Assembly: GCA_039908345.1 (NCBI GenBank)
Contig: JAMOBD010000012.1
Location: 1 to 52,995 of the forward strand
Origin: Magnetospirillum sp. WYHS-4
GTDB lineage: Bacteria; Pseudomonadota; Alphaproteobacteria; Rhodospirillales; GLO-3
Reading direction: 5' to 3'
Length of the DNA: 52,995 nucleotides
Positions 18,766 to 46,241 of the stretch are shown in pieces (position 1 is the first letter of the stretch; every line of letters begins with the position of its first letter). Under the pieces are notes generated by a model, which was given only the letters and a program-made list of their open reading frames with translations, did not search any database and was not told where the DNA came from. A program made the position numbers and the translations under genes.

Positions 18766-18928
18766 GGACGGCGCCGCGGAGGCCGTTGGCCCTGCGAATC
18801 CTCCGTGGCCTGCATGAGCAGGTGGGCGCCATATACCGAGCCCACGGGCTCGGCAGGGACAGCTCCCGAGGAGTTCAACTATGGCCCCAGGGATTGACGC
18901 AGCCTGACGTGACCCGCAGCCACCGTCC
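18766..18928 (-). ncRNA. ssrS: 6S RNA
   Basis: 163-nt candidate on the minus strand. The ends can pair (GGACGG at 18928-18923 with CCGTCC at 18771-18766); the middle has a strong terminal hairpin (CCGAGCCC with GGGCTCGG, around 18835-18852) flanked by unpaired-looking stretches that could form the central bubble that mimics an open promoter. The place, between zapA and the 5-FCL gene, is the conserved ssrS position in proteobacteria. 6S RNA binds and inhibits the housekeeping RNA polymerase holoenzyme. A covariance search would settle it; exact ends are estimated. Confidence 0.75.
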
Positions 18929-42690: not shown

Positions 42691-43758
42691 GTGAACGGAC
42701 TCGAGGACCGCATCCTGAAAGCGAAGATCCTGGTTGTCGACGACAATCCGGTGAACGTGGCGCTGTTGTGCGCGATCCTGGAGAACGCCGGCTACGTCCG
42801 CGTGGATGCAACCTCCGATCCCCGCAAGGTGGAGGGATTGTTCAGGGAACGCCACCACGACCTGATCCTGCTCGATATCCGCATGCCGTATCTGGACGGC
42901 ATCCAAGTGATGGAAATCCTCAAACGCGACCTGGGCGACGACTATCTGCCGGTTCTGGTGCTCACCGCCCAAACCGACCAGGAAACCCGCCGCCGCGCCC
43001 TCGACATGGGCGCCAAGGACTTCCTGACCAAGCCCTTCGAGCAGTGGGAAGTCCTGCTGCGCATCCGCAACATGCTGGAAGCTCGCATTTATTACAGCAA
43101 TCAACGCCTGCGGGCGGAGGAGTTGGAGGCGGTCGTGCGGGAACGGACCCAGGAAGTCCGCCAAACCCAGTTGGAGATCGTGCGCCGCCTGGGCCGCGCC
43201 GGGGAATTCCGCGACAACGAGACCGGGGCCCACGTCATCCGCATGAGTCGCGCCTCCCAGATGCTGGCGCTGGCCGCCGGCTGGACCGAAGCCCAGGCGG
43301 AGACCATCCTCTATGCCAGTCCGATGCACGACGTCGGCAAGATCGGCATTCCCGACGCGGTGCTGCTGAAGCCCGGACGCCTCGATCCCGAAGAGCGCCG
43401 GATCATGGAACGTCATGTCACCATCGGTGCCGATATCCTGGAAGGGCACGATTCCGAACTGATGCGCATGGCCCGGTCCATCGCTCTCACCCACCACGAG
43501 AAATGGGACGGCAGCGGCTATCCCAATGGACTTAAGGGCGAGGACATCCCCTTCGAAGGGCGCATTGGCGCGGTTTGCGACGTTTTCGACGCCCTGACTT
43601 CGGCCCGGCCCTACAAGCAGCCTTGGCCCCTCGAACAGGCCGTCCTGTTCCTGAAGGAGAATGCGGGGATTCACTTCGACCCGTTGCTGGTCGACCTGTT
43701 CGAGCGGATCGCCGAGGATGTCTTCAGGCTCCGCGAGCAATTCCCGGACGGGGAATGA
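42691..43758 (+). CDS. Response regulator with HD-GYP c-di-GMP phosphodiesterase domain
   Basis: 355 residues: N-terminal REC (about 10-130) with VVDDN, phospho-acceptor Asp in LLDIRMP and conserved Lys in TKPF; a linker coiled coil; HD-GYP (about 165-345) with NETGAHVIRM, HDVGKIGIPD and GSGYPNGLKGEDIP. Hydrolyses c-di-GMP when phosphorylated, as RpfG. No histidine kinase lies next to it. GTG start with AAGGA upstream. Overlaps the CbiM-like gene by 35 bases at the 3' end. Confidence 0.93.
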   Translation: MNGLEDRILKAKILVVDDNPVNVALLCAILENAGYVRVDATSDPRKVEGLFRERHHDLILLDIRMPYLDGIQVMEILKRDLGDDYLPVLVLTAQTDQETRRRALDMGAKDFLTKPFEQWEVLLRIRNMLEARIYYSNQRLRAEELEAVVRERTQEVRQTQLEIVRRLGRAGEFRDNETGAHVIRMSRASQMLALAAGWTEAQAETILYASPMHDVGKIGIPDAVLLKPGRLDPEERRIMERHVTIGADILEGHDSELMRMARSIALTHHEKWDGSGYPNGLKGEDIPFEGRIGAVCDVFDALTSARPYKQPWPLEQAVLFLKENAGIHFDPLLVDLFERIAEDVFRLREQFPDGE

Positions 43759-44350
43759 TCAAGTCGGGCCGCACGGTTCCCAACAGTTGCAGCACGGCGC
43801 CCGCCAGCAGGGCTTCGACTACCATGATCGGCAGATGGGCAAGGAAGACCGCGCCGGCGGCCGGCAGGAACTCTCGTCCACTCAGTGCCAAGGCCAGCCC
43901 CACCGAGGCTGCCGTCAGCGCGATGCCGCCCGCTCCGGCGAGCCCGCCGAGCAGCGCGTAGGAGGGAGGCGGCGCACGGCGCACCCAGGGACAGAGCAGA
44001 AGATGCACGGCGACCGCCGGTCCGGCCATGACCAGGGTGTTGACCCCGGCCACGGTCAGGCCGCCATACCCGAACAGCACGGCTTGCAGCAAAATCCCCA
44101 CCAGGATCACCGGAAAAGCCCGCCAGCCGAGCAAAAGCCCGATGGTCCCGTTGAGCAACAGATGGGCGCTGGACGGCCCGATGGGCACATGAACGAGCGA
44201 GGCGACGAAAAAGGCCGATCCGAGCAGGGCGGCCTTCGGAAGGTGGTCGGCCTCCAGCCGCCGCAGCCCCATCGCCACGCCGCCCGCCGTCAGCAGGGTC
44301 GCGCCGACGATTACCGGAGCGGTCAGGATGCCGTCCACGAGATGGGCCAT
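43724..44350 (-). CDS. CbiM/NikM-family cobalt/nickel ECF transport membrane protein
   Basis: 208 residues, six to seven hydrophobic helices. The conserved N-terminal stretch begins MAHLVDGIL, where the metal-binding His after the initial Met-Ala is kept, with HVPIGPSSAHLLLNG, a known metal site of this family. It imports nickel or cobalt together with an ATPase and CbiQ-type subunit; those are not visible here. Preceded by a DUF4198 gene under a NikR-type operator and next to hypE, so nickel is the likely metal. Confidence 0.87.
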   Translation of the reverse strand: MAHLVDGILTAPVIVGATLLTAGGVAMGLRRLEADHLPKAALLGSAFFVASLVHVPIGPSSAHLLLNGTIGLLLGWRAFPVILVGILLQAVLFGYGGLTVAGVNTLVMAGPAVAVHLLLCPWVRRAPPPSYALLGGLAGAGGIALTAASVGLALALSGREFLPAAGAVFLAHLPIMVVEALLAGAVLQLLGTVRPDLIIPRPGIARGA

Positions 44351-44366: not shown

Positions 44367-45131
44367 CTACTTCATGTCCGTGGCGCGGACCCAGATAAGC
44401 CCCCCCAGTTCGACGTCGGCAGGCTTGCCGTCGGGACCGGGAATTTTCGCGTCGCCATCCACCAGGACAGCGAATCCCCACCAGCCGGCCCGCGGCAGGG
44501 CATAGGCGAAAACGCCGTTGGCGTCGGCCTTGACCACCTGGGTGACGAAGGGATCGGCCGGCGCCTTCACTTTCCCCTCGCTGCGGTATTCCACCTCGAC
44601 CGTCGCCCCCGGCACCGGCTTGCCGTCGCGCCTGACCACGCCCCGAAACAAGTTGCCGGTCCACAGGCCGTAGGGCCGGGCCAAGGGCTCGATCTCCACC
44701 GGCAGCCCGACCAGGGCGTCCCAGCCTTCCTCGGTGCCGAAGGCGTTCACCACCACCTTGGTGTAATGGACGATCCATTTGCCTTCGCCCTTTTCCCAAT
44801 AGGGCGCGGGCTCGACGAAAAACAAGTGATCGCCGGGCGCGGCCAAGCCGTAGCTGGCCTCGTAGGCCGACTTGCCCTGGAGTTTGCGTGGCTTCAGGCT
44901 GGCCGACAGGTCCTGCGTCTTGCCGCTGGCCACCACGCCGAAACGCTTGGGAAACGCCATTTCCATCGCCGGTCTGTTGGCCATGGGATGGGTGAAGGCC
45001 AGGCCGAGGCGGACCGCCTTGCCATCCTCGGCCGCGACGATGTCGCGATCGGGAATCAACTCCTGGAAATGGGCCTGGGCGGTACCGGCCGCCAACACGA
45101 TCACCGATCCCATCACCGTCGCGATCCGCAT
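44367..45131 (-). CDS. DUF4198 periplasmic protein (NikK-like), nickel uptake
   Basis: 254 residues. Signal peptide ([14 protein letters not shown], about 1-20) with a His just after it (AHFQELIPD), DUF4198 body with [16 protein letters not shown] and the C-terminal [12 protein letters not shown]. Proteins of this type work with CbiM/NikM-type permeases in nickel or cobalt uptake. SD GGAGGC at 45142-45137. Start of the nickel operon, controlled by the operator at 45144-45170. Confidence 0.85.
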
Positions 45132-45143
45132 GGACTGCCTCCA

Positions 45144-45170
45144 GTATGACGAAATATTTTTCGTTCATAC
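45144..45170. promoter_or_regulatory. NikR-type operator
   Basis: Half-sites GTATGA (45144-45149) and TCATAC (45165-45170), perfectly inverted, with 15 bases between. Escherichia coli NikR recognises GTATGA-N16-TCATAC, so this differs by one base in spacing. The inner part CGAAA.../...TTTCG extends the symmetry. It overlaps the -10 box and start of the promoter. Confidence 0.75.
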
Positions 45171-45192
45171 AGCATGGCGGCGATGCTGGCAA
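45164..45192 (-). promoter_or_regulatory. Promoter of DUF4198-cbiM operon
   Basis: Minus strand TTGCCA (45192-45187), 17-base spacer, TATGAA (45169-45164). The -10 lies inside the right NikR half-site, so bound NikR would block it. Confidence 0.65.
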
Positions 45193-45200
45193 GTCCCGCG

Positions 45201-46241
45201 TCAGCAGATGCGTGGTAGTTGCTCGCCGGCCAGCCAATCGACGATGCGGGTGCCGCCGAAGCAGGTTTCCATTTCCACGAAGCGGTGGTCGTCAGCCACC
45301 GCCTGGCCGATGACGGCGGCCTCGCGCCCCAAGGGATGGGCCCGCATGGCGGCCAGGACGGCGGGGGCGTCGACGGCCGGGCAGATGCAGATCAGCTTGC
45401 CCTCGTTGGCGACGTTGAGGGGATCGAGCCCCAGCAGCTCGCAGGCGCCCTGCACCGCCGGAAGGATCGGGATCGCGGCTTCCTTCAGGCGCATGCCGAC
45501 TCCCGACTGGTGGGCGATCTCATTCAGGGTGGCCGCAAGCCCCCCACGGGTAGGATCGCGCAGCACATGGATGCCGGGCGCCGCCGCCAGCATGTCGGCC
45601 ACCAGGCCATGCAGGGCCGCGGAATCGGAGAGGATCTCGGTCTCGAAGGTCAGGTTCTCGCGCTTGGACATGATGGCGACCCCGTGGTCGCCGATGGTTC
45701 CCGAAACAAGCACCGCATCGCCCGGCCGGGCGCGATCACCGGAAATCTGGACGCCGTCGGGCACCAGGCCGATGCCGGTGGTGGTGATGAAAACCCCGTC
45801 GCCCTTGCCCCTTTGCACCACCTTGGTGTCGCCGGTGACTACCTGCACGCCGGCCTCGCGGGCGGCGCGGGCCATGGATTCGGCGATGCGCTTCAGGTCG
45901 CCTAGCGGGAAACCTTCCTCGATGACGAAGCCGGCCGACAGGTAGAGCGGCCGCGCCCCGCCCATGGCCAGGTCGTTGACCGTGCCGTGCACGGCCAGCG
46001 AGCCGATGTCGCCGCCGGGGAAGAACAAGGGCGAGATGACGTAGCCGTCGGTGGTCATGGCCATGCGGCCGCCGGGCACCGGGAAAAGGGCTTGGTCGTT
46101 CTGCTGGCGCAGGAACTCGTTGTCCAGCGCGGCGGCGAAAATCTCGGCGATCAACTGGGCCATGGCCCGCCCGCCCGCCCCGTGGGACAGGTCGATGCGG
46201 CCGTTCTTGAAATCGAGGGGCGTGACATGAGCCTTGCGCAT
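45201..46241 (-). CDS. hypE: Hydrogenase maturation protein HypE
   Basis: 346 residues. PurM-like fold: [15 protein letters not shown] near 15-30, [30 protein letters not shown] and [16 protein letters not shown]; it ends in LPRIC, whose last Cys is carbamoylated by HypF and dehydrated to thiocyanate as the source of the CN ligands of [NiFe]-hydrogenase. The rest of the hyp genes are not in the window downstream of this strand's gene. Next to a nickel uptake pair. Confidence 0.94.

Follow-up and report, generated by a model that had tools for sequence, protein, structure and literature searches.

The hypE-DUF4198 gap and its inverted repeat

The window analysed here, a stretch of 52,995 nucleotides on contig C12 of Magnetospirillum sp. 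WYHS-4, carries a run of three neighbouring genes on the minus strand. The [NiFe]-hydrogenase maturation gene hypE (45201..46241; 471.5 bits for TIGR02124, whose cut-off is 251.6) lies directly upstream of a DUF4198 gene (44367..45131; PF10670, 200.9 bits), which is followed by cbiM (43724..44350; PF01891, 166.8 bits). The DUF4198 gene is proposed to be nikK, coding for a periplasmic nickel-binding component, and cbiM to be nikM, coding for the membrane substrate-binding component. The DUF4198 protein has a likely signal peptide and, as judged by eye, a His after the likely cleavage site (TAQA/HFQE). Searches among solved structures returned nothing under E 0.64 for this protein and none at E 0.001 for CbiM. 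An N-terminal His has a presumed role; the window CbiM begins with MAHLVDG and not with MH (44348-44350 to 44320, minus strand), and with the first Met removed its His would still be residue 2. The window additionally holds a 6S RNA at 18767-18925 on the minus strand (50.7 bits; gathering score 46.4).

The intergenic gap between hypE and the DUF4198 gene measures 69 bp (45132-45200) and contains a predicted NikR-type operator, GTATGA-N15-TCATAC, at 45144-45170 (GTATGACGAAATATTTTTCGTTCATAC). The site is assigned to neither strand and consists of perfect inverted 6-bp arms around a 15-base spacer, as an earlier note on this DNA had described. It stands 12 nt ahead of the ATG of DUF4198 (45131), and the bases adjoining its arms are C and T. 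A NikR operator is expected to have the half-sites GTATGA/TCATAC and a total length of 27-28 bp; the site has these half-sites exactly and is 27 bp long. At up to two mismatches the motif occurs once in the window, as this operator and nowhere else, while dinucleotide shuffles of the window gave 0.25 matches on average and one or more in 23 of 100 cases.

A putative promoter (45164..45192, minus strand) overlaps the operator. It was read from the sequence as TTGCCA (45192-45187), 17 bases and TATGAA (45169-45164), with the -10 element within the operator. The earlier note's placement of the repeat over this -10 element, ahead of DUF4198-cbiM and beside hypE, is correct as a statement about the sequence. 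By our own count the two hexamers agree with the sigma-70 consensus at 9 of 12 positions, the last T of the -10 element being missing, and a stricter promoter scanner listed nothing in 45050-45300, so that a promoter over one operator half-site is plausible at most and would be weak.

Substrate of the pair and its partners in the genome

Both nickel and cobalt were considered as the substrate of the window pair. That it imports cobalt, with the site serving another metal regulator, is very improbable. The product of the window cbiM matches NF004905 at 238 bits, a family that NCBIfam names cobalt transporter CbiM, and this counts against the nickel reading; moreover, some NikKMLQO systems are described as having seemingly turned to cobalt (PMC2667541). 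However, a cobalamin riboswitch (103.9 bits; L192:1225-1437, G000:C17) precedes the second CbiM of the genome, on contig C17, and none occurs in the window, which points to cobalt there and to nickel for the window pair; cobalt transport was rejected as the main reading on this ground. Furthermore, the half-sites are those of NikR, a nikR gene is present, and PMC12537917 gives a Kd of 18 nM for the binding of nickel by a DUF4198 protein from Ideonella and also places NikR_C genes among DUF4198 neighbours. The DUF4198-CbiM pair of the window is thus most likely the nickel one, nikK-nikM.

NikKMLQO is described as a single system (PMC2667541, PMC2868824). The likeness holds if the DUF4198 protein is read as NikK and CbiM as NikM, with CbiQ and a NikL-like ORF encoded at another place; the difference is that the components would be split here over two loci, the C12 window with K and M and contig C5 with the others, instead of forming one cluster. 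The only CbiQ match in the genome lies at C5:78277-78885 and adjoins an ORF of 185 aa that has no Pfam match and a signal-like start followed by His. This ORF is called NikL-like by eye and by its likeness to an ORF after cbiM in a related genome (G057). Beside CbiQ, the piece scanned showed the ABC_tran ATPase only as a fragment.

The start region of the NikL-like ORF is overlapped by a candidate 28-bp N16 site with one mismatch (C5:79456-79483); the end of the contig is 18 bases away. About one hit of this kind would arise in the genome by chance, as estimated from the two-mismatch counts, so it is the location that gives this site its weight. At up to two mismatches, the genome holds 18 N15 matches against 12 for a reversed control and 12 N16 matches against 14. 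As these counts are at background, further sites from this search were rejected and only the C5 site was retained.

Exact sites are far fewer. GTATGA-N13..18-TCATAC occurs at two places in the whole genome, with none for the reversed control. A scan for the N15 and N16 forms, as proposed in the earlier note, accordingly yields one exact site of each: the window operator as the single N15, and an N16 site, GTATGACGA-N10-TCGTCATAC, at C100:4530-4557 (L003:1501-1528). The latter lies between a CbiX-type chelatase gene (minus strand, His-rich tail) and a cupin gene (plus strand), the cupin having a 60% paralogue on contig C1. Neither spacing was found at up to two mismatches before the cupin gene in any of 11 relatives' loci scanned, from 20 with a cupin match and with the genome's own second cupin on C1 set aside; a cupin target therefore lacks support from relatives. 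As for the possible use of nickel, the [NiFe]-hydrogenase large-subunit family has nine matches in the genome, eight of them over the cut-off and several being pieces.

NikR and the spacing of its operators in the order

A NikR, on which the earlier note had made its proposal depend, is encoded in this genome, with a single match to the NikR_C profile (C9:36420-36647, 109.6 bits). The protein has 157 aa with the domains RHH_1 and NikR_C. It reaches 198.1 bits against NF002815 and 166.4 against TIGR02793, under the cut-off of 175.45, which counts against it, as does the lack of a site upstream of its own gene against the operator reading. It aligns with the E. coli NikR chain 1q5v over residues 1-132. 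Its metal residues are E. coli-like, with H77, H88, H90 and C96 at the E. coli ligand positions; R3 and T5 are conserved as well, whereas the T of E. coli at position 7 is replaced by S. The roles of H77, H88, H90, C96, R3 and T5, as metal ligands and otherwise, are presumed.

The E. coli nikABCDE operator is GTATGA-N16-TCATAC (PMC7055735). Its half-sites are identical to those of the window; its spacer is one base longer, and its target is NikABCDE and not a DUF4198-CbiM pair. From this difference in spacing the earlier note had suggested that the local NikR may differ, so that N15 would mark a divergent regulator with a geometry unlike that of E. coli. The S at position 7 would suit such a divergence. 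However, the exact N16 site in the same genome and the E. coli-like metal residues speak against it. Besides, a 27-28 bp inverted repeat was already given as a single NikR signal of enterobacteria and deltaproteobacteria in 2004 by Rodionov et al. (PMC545781), where the enterobacterial form is GTATGAT-[N13/14]-ATCATAC; 7-bp half-sites with N13/14 are equal to N15/16 between 6-bp arms. The window site resembles that signal in its length and in lying upstream of nikK and nikMQO-type genes, and is unlike it in the bases adjoining the arms, which are T and A in the published signal and C and T in the window.

The spacing was further compared in 150 genomes from this bacterium's order, an even sample of a larger group. 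NikR is present in 50 of them, and an exact N13-18 site in 39. Exact N15 sites occur in 18/50 genomes with nikR and 7/100 without (Fisher 1.7e-5), exact N16 sites in 6/50 and 2/100 (P 0.017) and exact N14 sites in 4/50 and 2/100 (P 0.096), the genomes in all three comparisons being related and not independent. N13, N17 and N18 showed no excess in the 50 nikR genomes over the other 100. In the 400 bp preceding nikR, 12/50 genomes carry an exact site, which is N15 every time. With up to one mismatch, N15 occurs there in 24/50 genomes, N14 in one and N16 in one, and no genome has any of the remaining spacings in the range 8-22; with up to two mismatches, N15 occurs in 25/50 and each other spacing in 0 to 3. 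As a control, 60 permuted half-sites with up to one mismatch gave at most three genomes at any of the spacings N14-17. By hand count, the 25 N15 genomes at two mismatches are spread over 10 of the 23 nikR-bearing genera. One nikR (G092) aligned from residue 66 only, so its upstream stretch is unsure. N15 is, then, the usual form upstream of nikR in the sampled order.

A NikR tree of 50 rows was labelled by hand, with G092 dropped and Maritimibacter added to 49 genomes of the order; 27 rows were set as N15, 5 as N16, 1 as both and 17 as none. N15 requires 8 changes on this tree and N16 requires 3, and the spacing switches several times. With N15 common upstream of nikR and the spacing changing repeatedly along the tree, a divergent local NikR is very improbable. 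On the other side of the account, the hand labels leave 17/49 nikR genomes of the tree without a site, which counts against the operator reading. The NikR of the window's genome is sister to that of G001, its nearest relative, where nikR is present and both the exact site and DUF4198 are absent; this too counts against the reading.

Among DUF4198 relatives, 87 loci were scanned over 400 bp upstream, a redundant set with several loci per genome. GTATGA-type sites with up to one mismatch precede DUF4198 as N15 in the window's own genome, G031 and G047, and as N16 in G122, G148, G129 and Maritimibacter (L017), so the spacing varies among relatives of one gene. A GTGTTAC form with up to two mismatches precedes six DUF4198 loci, with N13 (27 bp in total) at L006, L009, L033, L046 and L054 and with N12 at L037. 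Most of the 87 loci have neither form in the 400 bp upstream. The location upstream of nickel genes is therefore found in relatives as well, without being universal in this redundant set. G057 carries the closest DUF4198 protein (67%) yet has no NikR match, a further point on the opposing side.

Elsewhere in nikR genomes, HupE/UreJ follows an N15 site in L117 and an N16 site in L096, and CbiM follows an N15 site in L099. The N15 site of L163 falls early within an SBP_bac_5 ORF and also where an SDR ORF starts on the opposite strand. Less fitting are the sites of L109, ahead of a methyltransferase gene, and of L108, which overlaps ORFs, one of them for a periplasmic binding protein. In genomes without nikR, exact N15 sites lie inside ORFs of 209-572 aa (L089, L098, L101 and L104) or within a 96-aa ORF (L091) and are probably due to chance; the inspection covered the N15 loci of the seven such genomes other than that of G055. 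G057, which is without a NikR match, bears an exact and strongly palindromic N15 site (L161:1452-1478) that overlaps a cupredoxin-like ORF; an Iron_transport gene lies 220 bp away from the site.

That the window repeat is itself a chance match, or a leader RNA hairpin formed through its inner ACGAAA/TTTCGT, which could pair in RNA, is hardly credible, since an exact match is expected only 1.3e-4 times per window and about 0.009 times per 3.65-Mb genome (Markov expectation, computed with the window's composition), and since the leader fold is ordinary (z -1.14) and an Rfam search gave nothing at or near the operator, for which reasons RNA-level control was rejected.

Proposed working of the operator and its meaning

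The site is, with high probability, a NikR operator of the ordinary kind and of the 27-bp (N15) length, which would shut off nikK-nikM with nickel. From the site and its location, the NikR gene, the transporter genes and the spacing common in relatives, we infer binding, repression, the promoter, the cooperation of two loci and the substrate. The earlier note's reading of a NikR-type operator before a nickel uptake pair is borne out at the level of sequence by the half-sites, by nikR and by the riboswitch at the other CbiM, and its view of N15 as a departure has to be given up.

When nickel is sufficient, the one NikR that the genome encodes would, once loaded with nickel, bind both half-sites and cover the -10 element and the start region, so that nikK (DUF4198) and nikM (cbiM) would be shut off. 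When nickel is scarce, NikR would be released and the nikK-nikM pair would be made. In the periplasm, nickel would then be held by NikK, and NikM would carry it across the membrane, probably acting with the NikL-like and CbiQ proteins from C5, which stand behind the candidate 28-bp site. The imported nickel would supply the [NiFe]-hydrogenases. A further idea, which we consider rather unlikely, is that one NikR reads both 27- and 28-bp operators in one cell and that spacing sets the order of shut-off, as nickel rises, among nikKM (N15) and nikL-like/cbiQ (N16), as the two halves of a split nickel transporter, and the cupin paralogue (exact N16).

Since a 27-28 bp signal was already known, what is new here is another case of a NikR operator together with spacing counts for one order; among the matches listed, no title or beginning of an abstract presents itself as a survey of operator lengths for this group. 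The counts correct the impression that 16 bases are the rule, N15 being the form upstream of nikR in the sampled order. A genome with both spacings and a single NikR would moreover be convenient for measuring the effect of spacing on affinity. Finally, the predicted control by NikR supports the reading of the DUF4198 protein of the window as a nickel protein.
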